From: a bacterium
Lineage (GTDB): Bacteria; Sumerlaeota; Sumerlaeia; SLMS01
DNA length: 64,000 nucleotides
Reading direction: 5' to 3'
Assembly: GCA_016125005.1 (NCBI GenBank)
Contig: WGMQ01000003.1
Span: 1-64,000 of the forward strand
Below are positions 29,402 through 63,939 of the stretch, piece after piece (within the stretch, counting starts at the first letter, position 1; the number at the start of each line of letters is the position of its first letter). A program made the translations under genes and the position numbers. The notes beneath the pieces are model-generated. The model was not told where the DNA came from. It saw nothing but the letters and a program-made list of their open reading frames with translations, and ran no database searches.

Positions 29402-30229
29402 CTATACGACGTCCGCAAACGAGTTCTCGACGCGGCGGAAATGGCGAATGCCGAGCGCGAGCAGGATCAGCACCAGCAACATCGAGCAGCCGAACGCCCC
29501 CCAATTGACCGATATCTTGCCGCCAAGCAGGCACCAACGGAATCCGTCGATCACCCCCACCATCGGATTCATGCCGTATAGAAATCTATACCGGTCCGGG
29601 ATGGCCGAGCTTGGGAAGCCAACAGGCGAGAGATAGACGCCCAGCTGGATCACGAATGGCACCACGAATCGGAAGTCGCGGAACTTGACGTTAAGGGCTG
29701 CGAACCAAATCCCCGCTGCGATAGATGTCAACATGGCGCCGAGCAGGAAAATGGGAAGAGCAACGATCTCGGGCCCCGGCATAATACCATACCAGCCCAT
29801 GAGGACCCCGAGCAGGACAAACGCGATGGCGAAGTCGACCAGGGCGACAACCGTTGAACTGACGGGGATGATGAGGCGCGGGAAGTAGATCTTGCGCAGC
29901 AGGTTGGCATTGGAGACGAGCGAACCACTGCATCCGGAGAGCGCCGTGGAGAAGAACTGCCAGGGGAGTACGCCGGCGTAGACCAGGATCGGATAGGGAA
30001 GTCCCTCGGCGGGCATCTTGGCGAGGCGGCCGAAGACCAGCGTGAAGACCACCATCGTGACAATGGGTTGGATCAACGCCCAGCAAATGCCGAGGAACGT
30101 CTGCTTGTATCGCACGGTGACGTCGCGCCAGGCGAAGAAGGCAAACAGCTCGCGATAGGCCCATATCTCCGACCAATAGCGCTCCGCCGTACCGCCGGGA
30201 CGAATCAGGATCTCGCCGTCCTTACGCAT
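29402..30229 (-). CDS. wzm: Polysaccharide/O-antigen ABC exporter, permease (Wzm/TagG-like)
   Basis: 275 residues from ATG 30229, with GGAGG 6 bases upstream. It is an ABC-2 permease: an amphipathic start (ERYWSEIWAYRELFAFFAWRDVTVRYKQT) is followed by six membrane helices, including ALIQPIVTMVVFTLVF and the PRLIIPVSSTVVALVDFAIAFVLL pair. It moves undecaprenyl-linked glycan to the periplasm using Wzt. The start overlaps the wzt stop by 8 bases. The stop codon TAG is itself part of a near-copy of the word (GTATAGAT, 29400-29407), and the dyad 29576-29591 lies within the gene. Confidence 0.94.
   Translation of the reverse strand: MRKDGEILIRPGGTAERYWSEIWAYRELFAFFAWRDVTVRYKQTFLGICWALIQPIVTMVVFTLVFGRLAKMPAEGLPYPILVYAGVLPWQFFSTALSGCSGSLVSNANLLRKIYFPRLIIPVSSTVVALVDFAIAFVLLGVLMGWYGIMPGPEIVALPIFLLGAMLTSIAAGIWFAALNVKFRDFRFVVPFVIQLGVYLSPVGFPSSAIPDRYRFLYGMNPMVGVIDGFRWCLLGGKISVNWGAFGCSMLLVLILLALGIRHFRRVENSFADVV
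29576..29591. repeat. Dyad of the GTATAGA word in wzm
   Basis: GTATAGA-AA-TCTATAC: two perfect 7-base inverted arms with a 2-base spacer. On the coding (minus) strand it encodes Tyr-Arg-Phe-Leu-Tyr with TAT AGA TTT CTA TAC. A second dyad of identical geometry lies 730 bases away in wzt. Confidence 0.75.
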
Positions 30230-31439
30230 GGATCGCCTCCCGTGTGGCATTCCAGCGGATGGGGACCGGGCCGTGGTGACGAACGTTCAGTTCGCTCCCG
30301 GTTCCGTATAGATCTCTATACGGAAGCTCGAAGGACAGCATCCCCGTCTCGCGCAGGAGCATCTTGTCCTTCACGAACCAGACCGTAACCAGATAGCGAC
30401 CGGGAGAGAGCAGTTCGTCGATGCGGGGCGCCGTGAAGATGGCCCGTTCCCCCACGGAGGCGTTGAAGTGCGTCATCAGGCTTCCCTGAGTGGAGACGCG
30501 GGTTCCGTCCTGCGTGGTGATCTCGATCCCGATTCCGATGGGGCCCTGCTGCTCGCCGAAAATGTCCAGCGACAGTTGCAGCGACAGGCCGCCGTCCGCA
30601 GGAATGAGCGCACTCTGGGCGTTGCGAAAACCGACGCGATTGGCGGTCGAGTAACACTCGGGCGATTCGGCGGCCCGGCGCAGCACGCGATCCATGTATT
30701 GCTCGATGACGGCAGTTGCTTCGCCGTCGCCAACCACACCCCCCTTGTCGAGCGTGATGACACGCGGGCAAAGGAGGCGAATCGCCGCCATGTTGTGGCT
30801 GACGAAAAGGACGGTGCGCCCCTCGCCGCGCACGACCTCCTTCATGCGCTCCAGGCACTTCTGCTGAAAGGCCGCGTCGCCGACGGACAGCACCTCGTCG
30901 ACGATGAGAACCTCAGGCTCCAGATGGGCCGCGACGGAGAAGGCGAGGCGCACGAACATGCCGGAGGAGTATTTCTTCACGGGGGTGTCGAGGAAGCGCT
31001 CGACCTCGGCGAACTGGACGATCTGGTCGAAGCGGGCGCGGATTTCCTGGCGGGTCATGCCAAGGATCGAGCCATTGAGGTAGACGTTCTCGCGGCCGGT
31101 CAACTCGGGGTGAAAGCCGGTGCCGACTTCCAGTAGGCTGGCCACCCGGCCGCGCAGCCGTACGGAGCCGGTAGTCGGCTCGGTGATGCGGCTTAGGATC
31201 TTGAGCAGGGTCGACTTGCCGGCGCCGTTGTGTCCGATGATGCCGACGGCCTCGCCCTCGTCGATACGGAAGGCCACGTCGCGAAGCGCCCAGAACTCGC
31301 CGCGCAATTGCTCGTCTGTCGGACGCCGGAGCAGCCGTGAAGCGCCGGAGACGAGGGATTCACGAAGCGTCCGGTAGGATGCCTTGTCGGGGTTGTGTTG
31401 CAGAATGTAACGCTTCCCCAGCGACTCGGCCAAAATCAT
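30222..31439 (-). CDS. wzt: Polysaccharide/O-antigen ABC exporter, ATPase with C-terminal glycan-binding domain (Wzt-like)
   Basis: 405 residues from ATG 31439. The nucleotide-binding domain has AVGIIGHNGAGKSTLLK (Walker A), TGRENVYLNG, KKYSSGMFVRLAFSVA (signature), PEVLIVDEVLSVGD (Walker B) and FVSHNMAA (H-loop). Residues from about 255 to the end form the beta-sandwich C-terminal domain of O9a/O12-type Wzt that recognises the capped glycan end, with SLQLSLDIFGEQ and YLVTVWFVKDKML strands. The presence of this domain predicts export coupled to chain-terminal recognition. It overlaps wzm by 8 bases. The dyad 30306-30321 lies near its 3' end. Confidence 0.95.
   Translation of the reverse strand: MILAESLGKRYILQHNPDKASYRTLRESLVSGASRLLRRPTDEQLRGEFWALRDVAFRIDEGEAVGIIGHNGAGKSTLLKILSRITEPTTGSVRLRGRVASLLEVGTGFHPELTGRENVYLNGSILGMTRQEIRARFDQIVQFAEVERFLDTPVKKYSSGMFVRLAFSVAAHLEPEVLIVDEVLSVGDAAFQQKCLERMKEVVRGEGRTVLFVSHNMAAIRLLCPRVITLDKGGVVGDGEATAVIEQYMDRVLRRAAESPECYSTANRVGFRNAQSALIPADGGLSLQLSLDIFGEQQGPIGIGIEITTQDGTRVSTQGSLMTHFNASVGERAIFTAPRIDELLSPGRYLVTVWFVKDKMLLRETGMLSFELPYRDLYGTGSELNVRHHGPVPIRWNATREAIHA
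30306..30321. repeat. Dyad of the GTATAGA word in wzt
   Basis: GTATAGA-TC-TCTATAC, extended by CC on the left and GG on the right so that both arms are 9 bases. It encodes Pro-Tyr-Arg-Asp-Leu-Tyr-Gly on the minus strand, using TAT AGA and CTA TAC. Spacing is identical to the dyads at 29576 and 17130. Confidence 0.78.
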
Positions 31440-39617: not shown

Positions 39618-42600
39618 TCAGCGTCCCCTCGTCCTTCCCAGCAGGTCGAGAAGTGCTTCCTCGAGGTTCGGGGTGACGGGGGTGGCGTCGGCGGGGAGGG
39701 GGGCCGTGGCGCCTTGGATGACGCGGAGGGCGATGCCGGTGCTGGTGACCCGTTGCGACACGACGCGGTGGCCGGCGCGGACGAGGGCGTCGCGGATGGC
39801 GTCGAGTTCCGTGGGGCGCGGGACGGGAACCTCCCAGAGGCTGACGGTGGAGCGGCGGCGCAGGTCCTCGGGCGGGGCCAGGGCCACCATGCGGCCGTCG
39901 TTCATGACGCCGACCAGCGTGCAGGCTTCGTCGAGGTCCTCGACCAGGTGGGTGGAAAAGATCACGAGGCGGTCCTTGGCCAGTTCGGCCAGAAGCAGGC
40001 GGACCTTCACGCGCTCGACCGGGTCGAGCTTGGCGGTGGGTTCGTCGACCATGATGATGGGGGGCGAGCCGAGGAGCAGGCGCGCGATCCCGGCGCGCTG
40101 ACGCATGCCGCCGGAGAAGGTGTCGAGGCGTCGATCGAGCGCGTGGGAGAGGTTCACCTCGGAGGCGACGCGTTCGATCTCGGCGCGGCGCTGCAGGTCG
40201 GTGTCGAGCGAGCGGAGCTGGTGCAGGAGTTGTGCGACGGGGGAGCCGGGTTCCTCGACGGCGCGGGCGCGGGCCACGGTGCGCGATGACATCAGGGCGA
40301 AGAAGTCGAGGTACTCGCGCAGGGTCATCCAGCCGTAGTAGCCGTGGTCCTGGGGGAGATAGCCGACGAGGGGCGCGATCTGGCCGGGGGCGTCGCGGTG
40401 GGCGACTCCGTATAGACGAACGGTGCCGCGGGCCGGTTCCTGAAGCCCCGCCAGGACGCGCATGAGCGTGGTCTTTCCCGCACCGTTGGGGCCGAGGAGA
40501 CCGAACATGCCACGTTCGAGGGAGAGCGCCACTCCGGATAGCGCGGCGACCTCTCCACCGTCGAGCCGGAGGAGCTTGCGAATGCGGTGCGGCAGGGGAC
40601 GCGCGAGGCCACGCAGTCCCGGCGCCGGGAAGCGGACCTGAAGGTTCGTGGCGGTGATGGCCGGGGTGCCCTCGATGGGTTGGCCCGGATCGACCGCGGC
40701 GGGCAGGGCCTTGCTCTTCCAGATGCCGAGGAGCGTCAGGATATCGAGCGGCACGGTGAGGGCCATGCGAAGCGCTGTATAGACAATGGAGATGGTGGCG
40801 AGGAAGGCTCCCTTGACGATGGCCCAGAGGCCGGGGGCGACGCGGCGACGTCCGCGCAGCACGTCGATCGGGTGCATGACCGCGTTGGCCATGCCTTCGC
40901 CGGTCTCGAACAGGACCGCCAAGAAGCGCATGAAACCGGGGCGCGCCCAGCGGACGAAGTCGTCGCCGAGCAGGTAGAACGATGGGAGGACGACGAGCGT
41001 GAGCACGGTGGCGCTGGTCAATCCGCCGATGATGACAACGGCGACGGGGCGCCATTGGTTGCCTTCCTCGCCAACGAGGGCGAGCGGCAGGAGCCCCAGC
41101 ACGGTGGTCAGCCATGTCATCACGATGGGGCGCAGGCGGGTCAGGGATGCTTCGAAAATGGCGCGCGATCGGTTGATCCCCGCGCGCTGCATTTCCAGGG
41201 CGCGGTCCATCATGACGATACCGTTGTTGACTGCGAGTCCCACCAACAGGATCACGCCGAAGGCGGCCAGGTCGTCGAGCGGGAGCCCGGCCAAATCCAG
41301 CCCCCAGACGATGCCGATCAGCATGAGTGGGTTGGTCAGCAGGATGATGAAGGGGACCCAGAAGCTCTCGAACACGGCGGCCATCACGACGTAGACGAGG
41401 ATGGCTCCGGAGAACATGGTGAACATGAACTGTCCCTGGCGTTCATCGACGCGCTGCGCCTCGCCCTGAAAGGAAACCACCACGCCGCCGGGATTCGGGA
41501 CGCTGCGGGCAATGCGGCGAATGTCCTCGGTGAGGGCCGCGGCGGTTGCCGTGGGCGCGAAGAAATAGGCCACTTCCATCGAGGACTGGCGGTCGGTGCG
41601 GCGAATGCCGGCAGGCTGACGGGACTTGCTAAAGACGCCGATTTCACCGAGCGGAACGTTGCCGTGTGTCGGCGTATAGACAGCAAGGTCCTTCACCTGG
41701 TCGACGGTCGCTCCCTCGGCCTCGCGGATGACGAAGGAGACCTCGGTCACCTTGTCGCCGTCCTTGAGACGCAGCGACGAGACGGTGCCGCGGGAACGTG
41801 TGGCGCCGAGATAACGAACGAGGGTGTCCGCCTTCACGTCGTAGACGCGCGACTTGTCGCGGTCGATCTGGACCAGATAGAGCGGGTCGGTTCGCCCTTC
41901 CTCAATGCGGGCGTTGGTGATGTCGGGGTGGTAGCGGAGCGCCTCGATCAGGTTCTCCGCGTAGCGCCGGACGGTCTCGGGGTCGAGCCCGGACAGTTCC
42001 AGAATTCCCTGATTGCCGAGATCGAGCGGGGGCGATTCGAGGTTATTGGAGAATCGCTGGAGGGAGAGCTCGACCGCTGGAATATCCCCGATGAATTCGA
42101 GCATGGTCTGCTCGATCTCGCGGAAGGGCTTCTCGTCGACGCGGTCCTTCAGCTCCTTGAGGCGAATGTTGGCCTCGCCGCCATCGCTGTTGAAGGACAC
42201 GCGGAAGGTCTTGATGTCGGGATGCTCGGAGAGACGGCGTTCGATGGCCACGGCGCTGCGGTTGACGTCGGACAGCGTGGAGCCGGCGGGGGCGCGGAAG
42301 TAGACCTCCATCCACTCGCGACCGGCCTCGCGCGAGGTGGAGGTCTCCGCCACGCGCTGACAACTTTCCAGCCAGGTAAAGGCCACCGCAAAGGCGATGA
42401 GGAACACGACGCGGCCGCGGTGGCGTAGCGCCGCCTTGAGGATCGTGCCGTAGTAGATCGCGGGACCCCAGCGCTTGCGCATCTTCATGGGACGCTTGGC
42501 GGCCTTGCGCGACTTCGTCTCCAGCACGCCGCGGACGAAGACGGGAACCAGCGTCAGCGCGACCGCGAGCGATAGCAGCAGCGGGAAGATGAGCGCCAGC

Positions 42601-43985
42601 GTCGGCTCGCGCACGATCTCCTTGAACTCGCCGTCGAGGAACGCGATCGGGACAAAGACGACCGCGGTGGTAAGCGTCGATGCGAAGAGCCCGCGACCGA
42701 CCTCGACGCCCCCCTGCGCCGCGGCTTCGCGGGGAGACACACCCTTCTCCCAAAGGCGAAGCGCATTCTCCGTCACCACGATGGCGTTATCCACCAACAT
42801 GCCGACGCCTAGGGCCAGTCCCACAATGGAGAAGATGTTGATGCTCATTCCCGTCGCGTAGAACAAGTTGAACACGGCAATGAGGCTGATGGGGACGGAG
42901 AGGAAGACAATCAATGCCACGCGCAGGGAGCCGAAGAAGATCAGCGGCACGAGGAGCGCCAGCAGAGCACCCTGCATCGAGAGTGACTTCACGTCGTTGA
43001 TGGCGTCCTCGACGTAGTGGGCAAAGTCCTCGTCGATGACGAGCGACACCCCCTGCGGGAGGGCGGCGTTGATCTCTTCCACGCGCTGGCGCGTGACGGC
43101 GGCCAGATCGATCAGGTTCCGGCCCGATTCCTTCTCCATCGTGATGCCGATGGCGTTCTGGCCGTCGGCGCGGGATACCCAGCGATTCACCGCTGACCCG
43201 GCCTCGATGGTGGCCACGTCGCGCAATCGCACGATGCCCTTGGCGTCGACGAAGACGTTCGCCAGTTGCTGGGGGGTCTTGACACGATCATCAAGGCGCA
43301 CGAACCAGGTTTCCGAGGGGAGCCGCAGCTTGCCGAGGAAGGAATCCTCACTGGCGGAGGCCTGCACACGCTGGATCACACTGCCGAAGTCGAGCCCGTA
43401 GGCGGCGAGCAGGTCGGTCTTGAAGTCGACCTCCACGACGGTGGACTGCACGCCGCGTAGCTCGACGTTGGAGACGCCGCTGATGGAACGGAGCTGCTGC
43501 TCCACGTGTTCGGTGGCCAGTTCGTATAGATCCTCTGGGTCGCCCGGGCCGCGGACGCTGAGGAACATGAACATCGAGTCCCACTCGCTGGTGGAGATGG
43601 GGAACGAGTTGATGTAGGTACGCGGGTCGTTGAGCTGCTGTCGGAAGCTATTGAGACGCTCGTCGAGATCCACAGCGGCGTACTCAAGGTCGGTGCCGTA
43701 CTCGAGGTTGACGCGGACGACGACGCGGTTGCTCTCGGTGCGCGAGCGGATGCGCTGCACGCGGGGAAGTTCCGCGATGATTCCTTCGACGCTCTTGGTG
43801 ATATTGTCGAGGTTGTCCTCCGCCGAGCGATCGTTGGAGACGATCACGATGAGCTGGGGGAAATCGATGTCGGGCAGGAGCTGAACAGGAAGCCGCCAGT
43901 ACGAAACCAGGCCGAGCGTGAGCACGGCGAGGAAGATCATCATGGTGGCGACGGGTCGTGCGACGGCCAGCGAGGAAATTTTCAT
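39618..43985 (-). CDS. RND efflux permease fused to a C-terminal ABC ATPase domain (single 1455-aa chain)
   Basis: Residues 1 to about 1035 are a complete HAE1-type RND permease. They start SLAVARPVATMMIFLAVLTLG and have large periplasmic porter regions; TM4 is VGLALGVGMLVDNAIVVTENA (one Asp then Asn, the D-N type) and TM10 is LVGLAVNNGIVMMDRALEM (no Lys). After TM12 a linker with another hydrophobic stretch (FLATISIVYTALRMALTVPLDILTLLGI) leads to a full ABC nucleotide-binding domain: Walker A LGPNGAGKTT (Lys1171), Q-loop GYLPQDHG, signature FSGGMRQRAG, Walker B IIMVDEPTAKLD and H-loop STHLVEDLD, plus the C-terminal tail typical of ABC-2 (CcmA/NatA) ATPases. RND pumps use the proton or sodium gradient; none that I know carries its own ATPase. 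No membrane-fusion protein or ABC permease is adjacent. Three exact words (40410, 40777, 41674) lie within it. Confidence 0.93.
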   Translation of the reverse strand: MKISSLAVARPVATMMIFLAVLTLGLVSYWRLPVQLLPDIDFPQLIVIVSNDRSAEDNLDNITKSVEGIIAELPRVQRIRSRTESNRVVVRVNLEYGTDLEYAAVDLDERLNSFRQQLNDPRTYINSFPISTSEWDSMFMFLSVRGPGDPEDLYELATEHVEQQLRSISGVSNVELRGVQSTVVEVDFKTDLLAAYGLDFGSVIQRVQASASEDSFLGKLRLPSETWFVRLDDRVKTPQQLANVFVDAKGIVRLRDVATIEAGSAVNRWVSRADGQNAIGITMEKESGRNLIDLAAVTRQRVEEINAALPQGVSLVIDEDFAHYVEDAINDVKSLSMQGALLALLVPLIFFGSLRVALIVFLSVPISLIAVFNLFYATGMSINIFSIVGLALGVGMLVDNAIVVTENALRLWEKGVSPREAAAQGGVEVGRGLFASTLTTAVVFVPIAFLDGEFKEIVREPTLALIFPLLLSLAVALTLVPVFVRGVLETKSRKAAKRPMKMRKRWGPAIYYGTILKAALRHRGRVVFLIAFAVAFTWLESCQRVAETSTSREAGREWMEVYFRAPAGSTLSDVNRSAVAIERRLSEHPDIKTFRVSFNSDGGEANIRLKELKDRVDEKPFREIEQTMLEFIGDIPAVELSLQRFSNNLESPPLDLGNQGILELSGLDPETVRRYAENLIEALRYHPDITNARIEEGRTDPLYLVQIDRDKSRVYDVKADTLVRYLGATRSRGTVSSLRLKDGDKVTEVSFVIREAEGATVDQVKDLAVYTPTHGNVPLGEIGVFSKSRQPAGIRRTDRQSSMEVAYFFAPTATAAALTEDIRRIARSVPNPGGVVVSFQGEAQRVDERQGQFMFTMFSGAILVYVVMAAVFESFWVPFIILLTNPLMLIGIVWGLDLAGLPLDDLAAFGVILLVGLAVNNGIVMMDRALEMQRAGINRSRAIFEASLTRLRPIVMTWLTTVLGLLPLALVGEEGNQWRPVAVVIIGGLTSATVLTLVVLPSFYLLGDDFVRWARPGFMRFLAVLFETGEGMANAVMHPIDVLRGRRRVAPGLWAIVKGAFLATISIVYTALRMALTVPLDILTLLGIWKSKALPAAVDPGQPIEGTPAITATNLQVRFPAPGLRGLARPLPHRIRKLLRLDGGEVAALSGVALSLERGMFGLLGPNGAGKTTLMRVLAGLQEPARGTVRLYGVAHRDAPGQIAPLVGYLPQDHGYYGWMTLREYLDFFALMSSRTVARARAVEEPGSPVAQLLHQLRSLDTDLQRRAEIERVASEVNLSHALDRRLDTFSGGMRQRAGIARLLLGSPPIIMVDEPTAKLDPVERVKVRLLLAELAKDRLVIFSTHLVEDLDEACTLVGVMNDGRMVALAPPEDLRRRSTVSLWEVPVPRPTELDAIRDALVRAGHRVVSQRVTSTGIALRVIQGATAPLPADATPVTPNLEEALLDLLGRTRGR

Positions 43986-44054: not shown

Positions 44055-45314
44055 TCAGGCGCTTTCCTTCTTTTCGCGCACCACGAAGGTCGGCTCGCCG
44101 GTGCGGTCGATCACCTGCTCGGTGATGCGGACCTCCGAGAACTCCTGCGCCTTGGCGGGAAGATCGAACTGGATGTCCAGCATGATTTCCTCGAGGATGG
44201 CGCGGAGGCCGCGGGCGCCGGTTTGGAGCTTGATGGCGCGGCGGGCGACGTTGGAAAGGGCCGCTTCGTCGAAGTTGAGGACCACGTCCTCCATCTCGAA
44301 CAGGCGGCGATACTGCTTCACGATGGCGTTGCGGGGCTGCGTGAGGATGTTGACGAGTTCCTCCTCGCCGAGCTGGCCGAGGGTCGTCAACACCGGGAAG
44401 CGGCCGATGAACTCGGGGATCATGCCGAACTTGAGCAGGTCGCGGTACTCGACCTGGGTCAGGACCTCGGTCACGTCGTCCTCGCTCTGCTTCTTCACGT
44501 CGGCGCCGAAGCCCATGACGCGCTGGTTCACGCGGCGGCGGATGATGTCCACCAAGCCGCCGAAGGCACCACCGGCGATGAAGAGGATGTTGGTGGTGTC
44601 GATCTTGATGTATTCCTGGTGTGGGTGCTTGCGGCCGCCGGTGGGAGGCACGTTGGCGACGGTGCCTTCCAGGATCTTGAGGAGGGCCTGCTGCACGCCT
44701 TCGCCCGAGACGTCACGGGTGATCGAGACGTTATGCGAGGTCTTGGCAATCTTGTCGATCTCGTCGATATAGACGATGCCGCGCTGTGCCTTCTCCACGT
44801 CGCCGTTGGCGGCCTGAAGGAGCCGCAGGAGGATGTTCTCCACGTCCTCGCCGACGTAGCCAGCCTGCGTGAGCGACGTCGCATCAGCGATGGCGAAGGG
44901 CACATCAAGGATGCGAGCAAGCGTCTGGGCCAGCAGGGTCTTGCCGCTACCCGTGGGGCCGATCATGAGGATGTTGGACTTGGAGATCTCGACCTCGTCC
45001 TTGTTGGCCTGCGAAAGCAGACGCTTGTAGTGATTGTGAACGGCCACAGAGAGGACGCGCTTGGGGCGGTCCTGCGCGATGACGTAGCGATCCAACTCCG
45101 CCTTGATCTCGGTGGGAGTGGGGAGTCGCTTCATTTCCTCGGTGGATTCGGACTCAACGCGTGTCAGCTCGTCGCGCTTGAGGCGCTCGTTGCACGTGAC
45201 CACGCACTCGTCACAGATGTAGACGCTGCCGAGCGTTTCCTTGTTGGTGAGCCCCTTGAAGAGGGTCTTCACCTGGTGTTGGTCGCGACCGCAGAACGAG
45301 CATTTCAAGCGCAT
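44055..45314 (-). CDS. clpX: ATP-dependent Clp protease ATP-binding subunit ClpX
   Basis: 419 residues from ATG 45314 (GAGG just upstream); an in-frame ATG at 45407 without a ribosome site would add 31 residues. The N-terminal zinc-binding domain has [12 protein letters not shown] and YICDECV (C4). The AAA+ domain has [16 protein letters not shown] (Walker A), [10 protein letters not shown] (Walker B) and [11 protein letters not shown], then EFIGRFPVL (sensor region) and [14 protein letters not shown] (sensor 2 Arg). It unfolds substrates for ClpP; no clpP is adjacent. It diverges from lon across about 260 bases. Confidence 0.97.
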
Positions 45315-45575
45315 GGCCTCATCCGTTTCATAAGCACTGCATTCGACATCAGCGAGGAGATTAGACTCACAGCGCTCCGTGTCAGGCAACTCAAAATCCG
45401 CGCCCATGATCAGGTGTCGCCGACGACGGTCCTGAGCCTGCTTCTCCGACGGGCTCCGCTTGTAACCGTTGCGCCGGAGTTCTGGCATGGTTTTGACATT
45501 AGCTGCCGGTGGGGCGCCGAATCCCCGACGACGATGAGACGAACTGCCGCTCTTCAATACATTCAAGGAACGCCC
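45315..45575. promoter_or_regulatory. Divergent clpX-lon control region
   Basis: About 260 bases between two divergently transcribed protease genes must hold both promoters. I see a TTGACA box at 45493-45498 reading toward lon, but no good -10 at 17 bases, and no CIRCE-type inverted repeat. The lon ribosome site AAGGAA is at 45565-45569. Confidence 0.45.
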
Positions 45576-48008
45576 GTGTCGCAAGGAAGCAACTTCCCCT
45601 CTCCCCTCCCTCCGCCCGACGAGATTCCCGGCGAGCTGCCGATCATGCCGTTGGAGGGCGTTGTTCTGTTCCCGCAGATGATCACTCCGATCGTGCTGAC
45701 CGACGACCGGGCGCGCCAGCTCATCGACGACGTGATGAAGACCGACAAGCTGTTCGCCCTCTTCCATCCGCTAGAGTCGTCCAACCCCGAGGATGCGGAG
45801 GCGCCGAAGAGCAAGCACCCGATCCGTGCCGGCGCCGTGCCGGGACTTTTTAACACGGGGACGCTGTGCAGCGTGCTGCGGGTTCTCCGCATCCCCGACG
45901 GTACCGTTCGCGTGCTGCTGAACGGAGTTTGCCGCGTCGCCATCGAGAGCGTGGTCTCGACCGATCCCTACATGCGCGCGGCTGTGAAGGTGGTTGAGGA
46001 CATCGAAGCGACGCCGGGCGACATCGAGGTCGATGGCATGGCGAAGCTGACGGTCGAGAATCTCAACCGTGCCATCGGCATGAATGCGTTGCCCGAGGAA
46101 CTGGCCGTCGCCGTCATGAACACGGAAGGTCCGGGCAAGATGGCCGACCTGGTGGCCGCCAACCTGCCGGTACGCCCCCTCGACCTGTTGCCGATCCTCG
46201 AGGAGCGCCGCGTCAAGGAGCGCCTCTCCAAGCTCCAGTTCCTTCTCGGCCGCGAAGTCCACGTGCTCGAAATCGGCAATCGCATCAACGAGGAGGTTCG
46301 CGAGGAAGTCGACCGCAACCAGCGAGCATACTTCCTCTCCCAGCAGATTCGCGCCCTGCGCCGTGAGCTGGGTGAGATCGACCCGCATGAAACCGAGATC
46401 GAGGACCTGCAGAAGCGCCTGCGCGAGGCGCGGATGCCGGAGCATGCCCGCAAGGTCGCCGAGCGCGAGCTTGGGCGGCTTTCCAGCCTCCCCTCCGCGG
46501 CCGCCGAATACGGCGTCATCCGCACCTACTTCGAGTGGATTCTGGACATTCCGTGGCACGTGTCCACGGACGATCATCTGGACATCCAGCTGGCGCGGGA
46601 AGTCCTGGACGAAGACCACTTCGGGCTCGAGAAAATCAAGGAGCGCATTCTGGAGTTCCTCAGCGTCATTCGCCTGAAGGACGGCGACCTGAAGGGACCG
46701 ATCCTGTGCCTTGTCGGGCCTCCCGGCGTCGGCAAGACGTCGCTTGGCCGTTCCATCGCCCGCGCCACGGGGCGCAAATTCCAGAACTTCTCCCTCGGCG
46801 GAATGCGCGACGAGGCGGAGATTCGCGGCCACCGCCGCACCTACGTCGGCGCCATGCCGGGCCGCATCGTCAAGGCTCTGAAGGACTGCGGAACCAACAA
46901 CCCGCTCATCATGCTGGATGAGATCGACAAGCTCGGCTCGGACTTCCGCGGCGACCCGGCGTCGGCGCTGCTGGAGGTGCTCGACCCCGAGCAGAACAGC
47001 CACTTCAACGACCATTACATGGATATGCCGATCGACCTGTCGCGCGTCATGTTCATCACGACGGCGAACTCGCTCGACAGCATCCCCGAGCCGCTTCGCG
47101 ACCGCATGGAGATCATCCGCATCGCTGGCTACACGGACTTGGAGAAGGAAGAGATTGCTCTCCGCTATCTGGTGCCGCGCGAGTTGGACAACAACGGCCT
47201 GAAGAAGAAGGACATCGGATTCCAGCGCGCCGCCATCCGGCACATCATCCACGAGTACACCATGGAAGCAGGCGTCCGCGGCTTGCAGCGCCAGGTCGCC
47301 AAGGTCTGCCGCAAGGTCGCCATGCGCGTCGCCGAGTTCCAGTCCGAGGTCGAGCGGAATCCCAAGAAGAAGCACGAGAAGCCCGAGAAGGCGAAAATCG
47401 ATCTGGCTTCGGTCGAGTCCTACCTTGGGCCGAAGCTCAGTCACCTGGAGGCGGCCGAGCGTCTGGCCAAGCCGGGCGTTTCCGTGGGTCTCGCGTGGAC
47501 ATCGGTGGGCGGCGCGATCCTCTTCATCGAAGCGGCGCGTTATCGTGGCAAGGGCGAGATCAAGCTCACAGGTCAGTTGGGCGACGTGATGAAGGAATCA
47601 GCCCTCGCGGCCCTTACCTACCTGAAGGCCAACGGAACCCAGTTTGGCATCAAGCCCGAGGACTTCGAGCAGTGGGATTATCACCTGCACGTGCCGGCTG
47701 GTGCGACTCCGAAGGATGGCCCCAGCGCGGGTACTGCCATTTCCACGGCGCTCACGAGCCTCATTACCGGTCGTCAGGTGCGCGACTACCTGGCCATGAC
47801 CGGGGAGATCACGCTGCGCGGCAATGTCATGCCGGTCGGCGGGATCAAGGAGAAGTGCCTCGCGGCCCTGCGTGCCGGCATCAAGGAAGTCCTCCTCCCC
47901 CACCACAACGAAGGGGACTATGGCGAAGTCCCGGAAAACATCCGCAAGGGACTGAAGGTCCGGTTCCTGCGCGAAACATCCCAATTCATTGAGGCTGCCC
48001 TGCGATGA
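45576..48008 (+). CDS. lon: ATP-dependent protease La
   Basis: 810 residues from GTG 45576, chosen because AAGGAA lies 6 bases upstream; ATG 45534 is an in-frame alternative. The N-terminal substrate domain starts [21 protein letters not shown]. The AAA+ module has [20 protein letters not shown] (Walker A, about residue 380) and [16 protein letters not shown] (Walker B). The C-terminal Ser-Lys protease has [18 protein letters not shown] (catalytic Ser, about residue 717) and [17 protein letters not shown] (catalytic Lys). It degrades misfolded and regulatory proteins. It overlaps the lipoprotein gene by 4 bases (ATGA), so the downstream lipoprotein and redoxin may be expressed with lon under stress. 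Confidence 0.97.
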
Positions 48009-62625: not shown

Positions 62626-63939
62626 ATGAAGCGCACCCTGATTCCAATCATCCTCATCATCCTCATACTCGCCGCCGCGAGCGCGGCGTACCTTGCCGAC
62701 AACAGCAGCTCGACGACCGAGGCACCGCCCCTGATCGACGTGAGGCGCGGCACCATCAAGACCACGGTCGACGCGTCGGGAACCGTGTATGCAGATCGCG
62801 AAGTTGAGATCAAAGCCAAGGCCAGTGGCGAGATCGTTGAACTGCCGTTCGATGTGGGCGACCGCGTTAGGAAGGGCGACCTTCTTGTCAGGTTGGATCC
62901 GATCGACGAGCAGCGGTCGCTGCGCAAGGCGGAGATCGCGACGTCCTCCACGCTGGCGCGGCTGGCCCAGGCGCGCATCGACGTTTCAACGGCGGAGCGC
63001 AATCTGGCCTCGAACCGAAGCCGTGCGGCCGCCAGCCTCGCTGCGGCCGAGGCAACCGCCGTCGACCGGCGACGGAAGGCAGAGCGTGCACTCGACCTCT
63101 ATGTCCGCAAACTCGCAAGCGAGCAGGAGCGCGACGAGGCGGTTTCCGCAGCCGCGACTGCCGACTCCGAGGTTGAGGGGGCGCGCATTCGGCTGACGGA
63201 ACTCGATACCGAGGAGCTCACCATCGAGCGCCTGAAGCGCGCTGTGGAGTTGGCCGAGGCGGATCGCGAGTCGGCGCGCATCTCCCAACTCGACGCACGG
63301 GAGCGACTAGCCGAAACGCAGATCTACGCGCCGATTGATGGAGTTGTCTCGGAGCTGAACGTCCAGGTGGGCCAGATCATTTCGTCGGCAATCAGCAACG
63401 TTGGTGGCGGCACGTCGGCGATGGTACTCAGCGACCTTGGCCGGATGTTTGTCTACGCGTCGGTGGATGAGACGGACGTCGGCAAGCTGGCCCTCGGTCA
63501 GACGGTGACGGTGCGGGCGGATGGCTACGGGGACGAGGAGTTCGTGGGCAAGGTGGAGCGAATCGCCGTGAAGGGCGAGGAGGTATCCAACGTGGTGACC
63601 TTCGAGGCGGGCATCCAGATCACCAGCGCGAATCGCACGAAGCTCAAGCCACAGATGACGGTCACCGCCTCCATATTGCTGGAGGAGCACAGTGACGTGA
63701 CGGTTGTGGCGAACGAAGCCCTGATTGAGGAGGGCGGACGAACCTTCGTCGAAGTTCAGGGGAGCGGTAATGCCACCGCTCGCCGAGTGATCACGACGGG
63801 ACTGACGGACGGGGTGGACGTTGAGGTGCTGACGGGCCTTCAACCGGGCGAGCGAGTCGTGAGCCAGGGCACCATCAAGAGCCGATGGACAGCGAAGTCC
63901 GAGCAGAAGAGCAGCCTGCCGCCACCGCCGGGGTTGTGA
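62626..63939 (+). CDS. Membrane-fusion (periplasmic adaptor) protein, MacA/HlyD-like
   Basis: 437 residues from ATG 62626. An N-terminal anchor (LIPIILIILILAAASAAYL) is followed by DVRRGTIKTTVDASGTV (start of the MFP core), the lipoyl half AKASGEIVELPFDVGDRV, a coiled-coil hairpin (about residues 100-220, many ARL.QA and AERAL repeats), the second lipoyl half AETQIYAPIDGVVSELNV and a beta-barrel (TVRADGYGDEEFVGKV). The tail is proline-rich. With the ABC gene 8 bases downstream it forms a MacAB/Lol-like exporter unit. Confidence 0.93.
   Translation: MKRTLIPIILIILILAAASAAYLADNSSSTTEAPPLIDVRRGTIKTTVDASGTVYADREVEIKAKASGEIVELPFDVGDRVRKGDLLVRLDPIDEQRSLRKAEIATSSTLARLAQARIDVSTAERNLASNRSRAAASLAAAEATAVDRRRKAERALDLYVRKLASEQERDEAVSAAATADSEVEGARIRLTELDTEELTIERLKRAVELAEADRESARISQLDARERLAETQIYAPIDGVVSELNVQVGQIISSAISNVGGGTSAMVLSDLGRMFVYASVDETDVGKLALGQTVTVRADGYGDEEFVGKVERIAVKGEEVSNVVTFEAGIQITSANRTKLKPQMTVTASILLEEHSDVTVVANEALIEEGGRTFVEVQGSGNATARRVITTGLTDGVDVEVLTGLQPGERVVSQGTIKSRWTAKSEQKSSLPPPPGL

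Follow-up and report, generated by a model that had tools for sequence, protein, structure and literature searches.

A conserved fusion of an RND permease and an ABC-2-type ATPase, retained together with a second RND permease and an ABC-2 permease, suggests a candidate exporter using two energy sources

The window analysed here is a bacterial DNA stretch of 64,000 nucleotides. On its minus strand, a single open frame runs from an ATG at 43985 to a stop at 39618 and encodes 1455 aa with no internal stop. A preliminary description of this DNA had proposed that the product joins a full HAE1-type RND permease and a complete ABC nucleotide-binding domain (NBD) in one chain, with intact NBD motifs including Walker A Lys1171. 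This was confirmed by the open frame and by Pfam, and all five motifs were located as described. The fused RND half is called RND-2 below and its unfused partner RND-1. The features of the gene are the following:

39618 to 43985, minus strand: RND-2::NBD fusion gene (open frame, Pfam, orthologous fusions in relatives)
40926 to 43985, minus strand: RND permease part, HAE1 type, 12 TM, residues 1–1020 (ACR_tran; MdtB nearest solved relative)
42789 to 42791, minus strand: D399 of TM4, within the RND permease part
40590 to 40925, minus strand: linker, residues 1021–1132, with predicted TM12 extension, amphipathic/hydrophobic helix at about 1051–1077 and disordered tether (AlphaFold, hydropathy)
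39621 to 40589, minus strand: NBD and C-terminal extension, residues 1133–1455, ABC-2/M1-exporter subtype (ABC_tran, NBD tree, foldseek)
40467 to 40493, minus strand: Walker A GPNGAGKTT, residues 1165–1173, with Lys1171 (motif check)
Residue 1208 of the fusion protein: Q-loop GYLPQ, with Q1212 (motif check)
40104 to 40118, minus strand: ABC signature FSGGM, residues 1290–1294 (motif check)
40038 to 40058, minus strand: Walker B IIMVDEP, residues 1310–1316 (IIMVDEPT at 1310; motif check)
39948 to 39950, minus strand: H-loop His1346, in STHL at 1344 (motif check)

The Pfam model ACR_tran (PF00873) matches residues 3–1006 over model positions 1–1019 of 1021 (E 1.5e-180), and ABC_tran matches residues 1150–1318 (E 1e-25). 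The nearest solved relative of the RND part is E. coli MdtB (E 1.2e-85). RND permease models of NCBIfam match the fusion, whose C-terminal part is closest to the ABC-2-type ATPases DrrA and GldA. Foldseek neighbours of the NBD (TM_1403, ABCA proteins and NosF) include ABC-2-type NBDs. By its nearest models, tree neighbours and foldseek, the fused NBD is thus of the ABC-2 subtype. The five motifs (Walker A, Q-loop, signature, Walker B and H-loop) are intact in 24/24 fusions from three phyla. In the window's family and order, the NBDs contain, between Q-loop and signature, an insert (1238–1262, about 25 residues) that other fusions lack.

A hydrophobic segment in the linker had been suggested to keep the ATPase inside. 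The segment does exist but is weak, with two Kyte-Doolittle peaks (1.62 and 1.48) within 1049–1086. The proposed role was not retained, since a 13th TM would bring the NBD outside and since, by hydropathy, the more distant class members lack the stretch or have a different one. The AlphaFold model of residues 820–1455 has a long TM12 helix (979–1043), a low-confidence helix at about 1051–1077 and disorder up to about 1125, followed by the NBD with pLDDT mostly >90; from this model, a surface helix or hairpin is the more likely form of the segment. With a long extension of TM12 and a disordered linker as its tether, the NBD is predicted to be able to reach a partner. Three Bacteroidota fusions (L059:12114-16817, L061:10738-15447 and L068:11344-16074) have a linker with about six extra hydrophobic segments. 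In Bacteroidota fusions a stretch like the first NBD strand, e.g. INIKIRKLVKIYD, lies about 180 residues ahead of the remaining NBD. It is as if a multi-helix insert had split the ATPase domain, the first piece of which gives a very weak HMM match.

We searched related genomes for the same fusion. In the window's class it is full-length in 13 of 39 genomes from five families (1444–1500 aa) and truncated by contig ends in G010, G034, G032 and G027. Among the matches listed, it is also present in at least Bacteroidales, Carboxylicivirga and the gammaproteobacterium TMED1. The order of Carboxylicivirga has it in 32/247 genomes (24 over the full length) and that of TMED1 in 4/195, TMED1 included, so that its known spread is at least three phyla and at least 24 Bacteroidota genomes. 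Two candidates picked out by long open frames (G011:C286 and G017:C137) proved to be ordinary unfused RNDs. The window genome (88.5% complete) also holds several further RND genes, all unfused. That a sequencing or assembly artefact joined neighbouring genes is extremely improbable: the window assembly is fragmented (112 contigs), but the idea is refuted by conservation of the fusion, in the same order and at full length, across dozens of independent assemblies, and both halves form single clades.

In the NBD tree, the fused NBDs form one clade (SH-aLRT 98); two of its rows, although marked as stand-alone, are pieces of fusions cut at contig edges. The stand-alone NBDs of the fusion operons form a separate clade (92). 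A large clade related to the fused NBDs comprises stand-alone NBDs from Xanthomonas, Flavobacteriaceae, Acidobacteriota and others, most of which adjoin an ABC-2 permease whose M1 aminopeptidase domain has HExxH. In the RND tree, all fused RND halves group in a single clade (100), and so do the unfused RND-1 partners (100), whose clade includes a gene of the window genome (G000:C64:10702-13755). Their sisters are respectively the second and the first RNDs of unfused tandem-RND operons of Gammaproteobacteria and Acidobacteriota, in trees built by a quick method with a single-matrix model, where the clades themselves are more certain than the order of the deep branches. Descent of RND-1 and RND-2 from the MdtB/MdtC duplication was rejected, as E. 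coli MdtB and MdtC form a clade of their own (100), separate from those of RND-1 and of the fusions. Since the fused RNDs and the fused NBDs are each a single clade, the fusion arose once. The trees indicate that the second subunit of an independent two-RND pump acquired an ABC-2 NBD, in one event.

The preliminary description had overlooked the partners encoded in full operons, namely ABC-2 permeases, a stand-alone NBD, an adaptor and an outer-membrane channel. In Bacteroidota, the operon has seven genes (families assigned by Pfam) in the order ABC ATPase (NBD), ABC-2::M1-like permease, TolC-type OMF, HlyD-type MFP, RND-1, RND-2::NBD and a short six-helix protein. The long ABC-2 permease bears an M1-peptidase-like ectodomain and, in L061, also a golvesin-type domain. 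Elsewhere in the window's class, homologues of all seven genes are present, arranged differently. In G016, OMF-MFP-NBD-6TM-RND-1 lie on one contig and the end of RND-1, ABC-2::pseudo-M1 and the fusion on another; in G032, one contig carries MFP-NBD-6TM-RND-1-ABC-2 and another ABC-2-fusion; in G018, MFP-NBD-6TM-RND-1 are together, with the fusion and the ABC-2 permease elsewhere. Two Gammaproteobacteria have the fusion followed directly by a short ABC-2-like gene, only these two being together.

Both ABC-2 components were compared between phyla by profile comparison. The short six-helix proteins of two phyla are homologous (probability 93, E 3e-7); they give a weak ABC-2 Pfam match, and searching the PDB by sequence with this short permease returned no relevant match. 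The permeases of the class match those of Bacteroidota with a probability of 98.6 (E 6.6e-16). For the long permease the ABC-2 and M1-like Pfam matches are weak and the structure model is poor (mean pLDDT 63), so that only the M1-like match was taken from it, cautiously. HExxH was absent from 12/12 class permeases and from 5/5 Bacteroidota/TMED1 permeases checked.

The window genome retains three components at separate loci: the fusion, RND-1 alone on contig C64 and the ABC-2::pseudo-M1 permease on contig C8, a dispersal typical of the window's family and order. No MFP, OMF, stand-alone NBD of the operon clade or short permease lies beside these three genes, so the reduced system may work differently. 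No classical MFP/OMF operon was found around the fusion gene, whose neighbours are clpX on the upstream side and, downstream, a gene for a protein of unknown family. The position of the fusion directly downstream of clpX (window 44055-45767) is repeated in at least four other genomes of its family or order (G001, G005, G008 and G009). The gene at 62626, of HlyD type, was rejected as a partner, being part of a MacAB-like set that runs past the window end. This set (window 62626-63939 and beyond, L219:2627-5842) consists of an HlyD-type adaptor, then an ABC ATPase and a MacB-like permease, and is an ordinary one. Elsewhere in the window (29402-31439), a glycosyltransferase cluster holds a 405-aa ABC ATPase and a membrane protein resembling an O-antigen (Wzm/Wzt-type) exporter, the family being assigned by inspection of the sequence.

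The orphan permease family of the window genome aligns with the operon permeases nearly at full length (775 columns, probability 100, E 1.2e-40). In three genomes of family f1 it lies near another ABC ATPase + permease pair, and this pair could serve it.

Across the 39 genomes of the class, fusion and permease occur together in 16, the fusion only in 1, the permease only in 2 and neither in 20 (Fisher p 6e-8, shared ancestry ignored). The fusion-only genome is G003 (80% complete). The permease-only genomes are G036 and G031, where the contig ends inside the permease gene. RND-1, at 42–78% identity to the G008 RND-1 query (self 100%), was found in 16/17 fusion genomes and in G031, and fusion-free genomes other than G031 reached at most 37%. 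In the sister genus g3 (G002 and G006), within the window's family, the fusion, the permease and RND-1 are all absent, which is consistent with their joint loss. Together, a single ancient origin, retention in three phyla and this joint loss suggest functional interdependence.

The preliminary description had counted three ATPase domains, which assumes a homotrimer. An unfused RND-1 of the paired lineage is however present in nearly every fusion genome. Because RND-1 and the fusion are retained as a pair, we propose a heterotrimer; judging from this gene content, an RND heterotrimer with one or two NBDs would be at least as likely.

We also re-examined the proton-relay residues. D399 (AcrB D407), R950 and T957 are conserved in 16/16 aligned fusions, while the second TM4 Asp is an Asn (N400) and the TM10 Lys is also an Asn. 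The D-N pair of TM4 and the lack of a TM10 Lys are therefore as first described, but the altered proton coupling drawn from them was rejected because both are common among unfused RNDs: in our sample, 30/47 have D-N and 31/47 have V-N-N in TM10.

Several known systems share parts of this organization. Active MdtBC is a B2C heterotrimer (PMC7015380, PMC12802153), and MdtB2C would offer a precedent by analogy for a mixed RND trimer in the fusion system. MdtABC and MuxABC likewise have two paralogous tandem HAE1 RND genes and an adaptor; however, their duplication is separate from that of RND-1 and RND-2, and only the fusion system has an NBD on RND-2 and ABC-2 subunits. Closer relatives are the unfused tandem-RND operons L060, L062 and L063, which share the gene order MFP-RND-RND and whose RNDs are the sisters of RND-1 and fused RND-2, but which have neither NBD nor ABC-2 subunits. 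These operons, from Gammaproteobacteria and Acidobacteriota, are two-RND pumps outside the MdtB/MdtC duplication. On the ABC side, ABC-2 exporters with an M1-aminopeptidase ectodomain (e.g. in Xanthomonas and Flavobacteriaceae) have a related NBD lineage and the same ABC-2 + M1-like permease layout. In contrast to the fusion system, their NBD is separate, HExxH is kept and there is no RND. ArsB-ArsA provides a case of an ion-gradient-capable carrier that also couples to an ATPase; the families are unrelated to those of the fusion, and ArsA is not ABC and not fused to ArsB. Finally, MacAB-TolC is an ABC motor cooperating with an adaptor and TolC (PMC5673888). This combination resembles the fusion system, but it involves no RND, and MacB is one ABC protein that has a periplasmic domain of its own. 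For an RND-ABC fusion itself, no description was found in the open-access PMC literature, the nearest match being Snf7 fused to an RND-family transporter (PMC11237479).

We favour, with moderate confidence, an MdtBC-like two-RND pump in which the NBD of an ABC-2 exporter is attached to RND-2, so that ATP- and proton-driven steps would be tied together. We infer complex formation, stoichiometry, substrate, direction and coupling as follows. The fused NBD, with or without the stand-alone NBD, would power in trans the ABC-2 membrane subunits, i.e. the long one with an M1-peptidase-like ectodomain lacking HExxH and the short six-helix one. These would export an amphipathic or lipid-like substrate from the cytoplasm or inner leaflet. 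At the outer face, the RND-1/RND-2 heterotrimer, proton-driven via D399/R950/T957, would pick it up and hand it via the HlyD-type adaptor to the TolC-type channel, and the fusion would hold both engines together. A difficulty is that the symmetries of an RND trimer and an ABC dimer disagree unless the trimer is mixed; a 2:1 mixed RND trimer would ease this mismatch of threefold and twofold.

It is unlikely, in our view, that the NBD drives or gates the RND cycle directly, ATP replacing or assisting proton coupling and the ABC-2 subunit being unnecessary. This would agree with the absence of an ABC-2 permease beside the fusion in the window's family and order, with the 80% complete genome in which the fusion but no permease was seen, and with the full set of catalytic motifs in fused NBDs. 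However, the NBD lineage pairs elsewhere with ABC-2::M1 permeases, and the fusion has ABC-2 genes next to it in Bacteroidota, in Gammaproteobacteria and in part of the class; moreover, the Asp, Arg and Thr of the proton relay are kept and the predicted tether is long and disordered. We give still less credit to two independent exporters merely tethered, where the fusion would aid only co-expression or localisation, with no hand-over of substrate. Each part does belong to its own recognisable family and the disordered linker would permit independence, but the one ancient origin, the maintenance of the fusion across three phyla and the apparent joint loss in g3 argue against it.

If the favoured two-RND reading is carried further, the system would be an undescribed envelope-spanning exporter, with ABC-2 and heteromeric RND parts in one complex, joined by one polypeptide, and ATP and protons energising successive steps; we hold this tentatively, at slightly below an even chance. 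RND and ABC transporters are classed apart by energy source. The retention of the fusion in at least three phyla with conserved partner genes suggests that both mechanisms can be combined in one machine. With the fusion, dual energy coupling in envelope export becomes directly testable, and there is reason to recheck proteins that annotation pipelines likely call simply ‘RND permease’.
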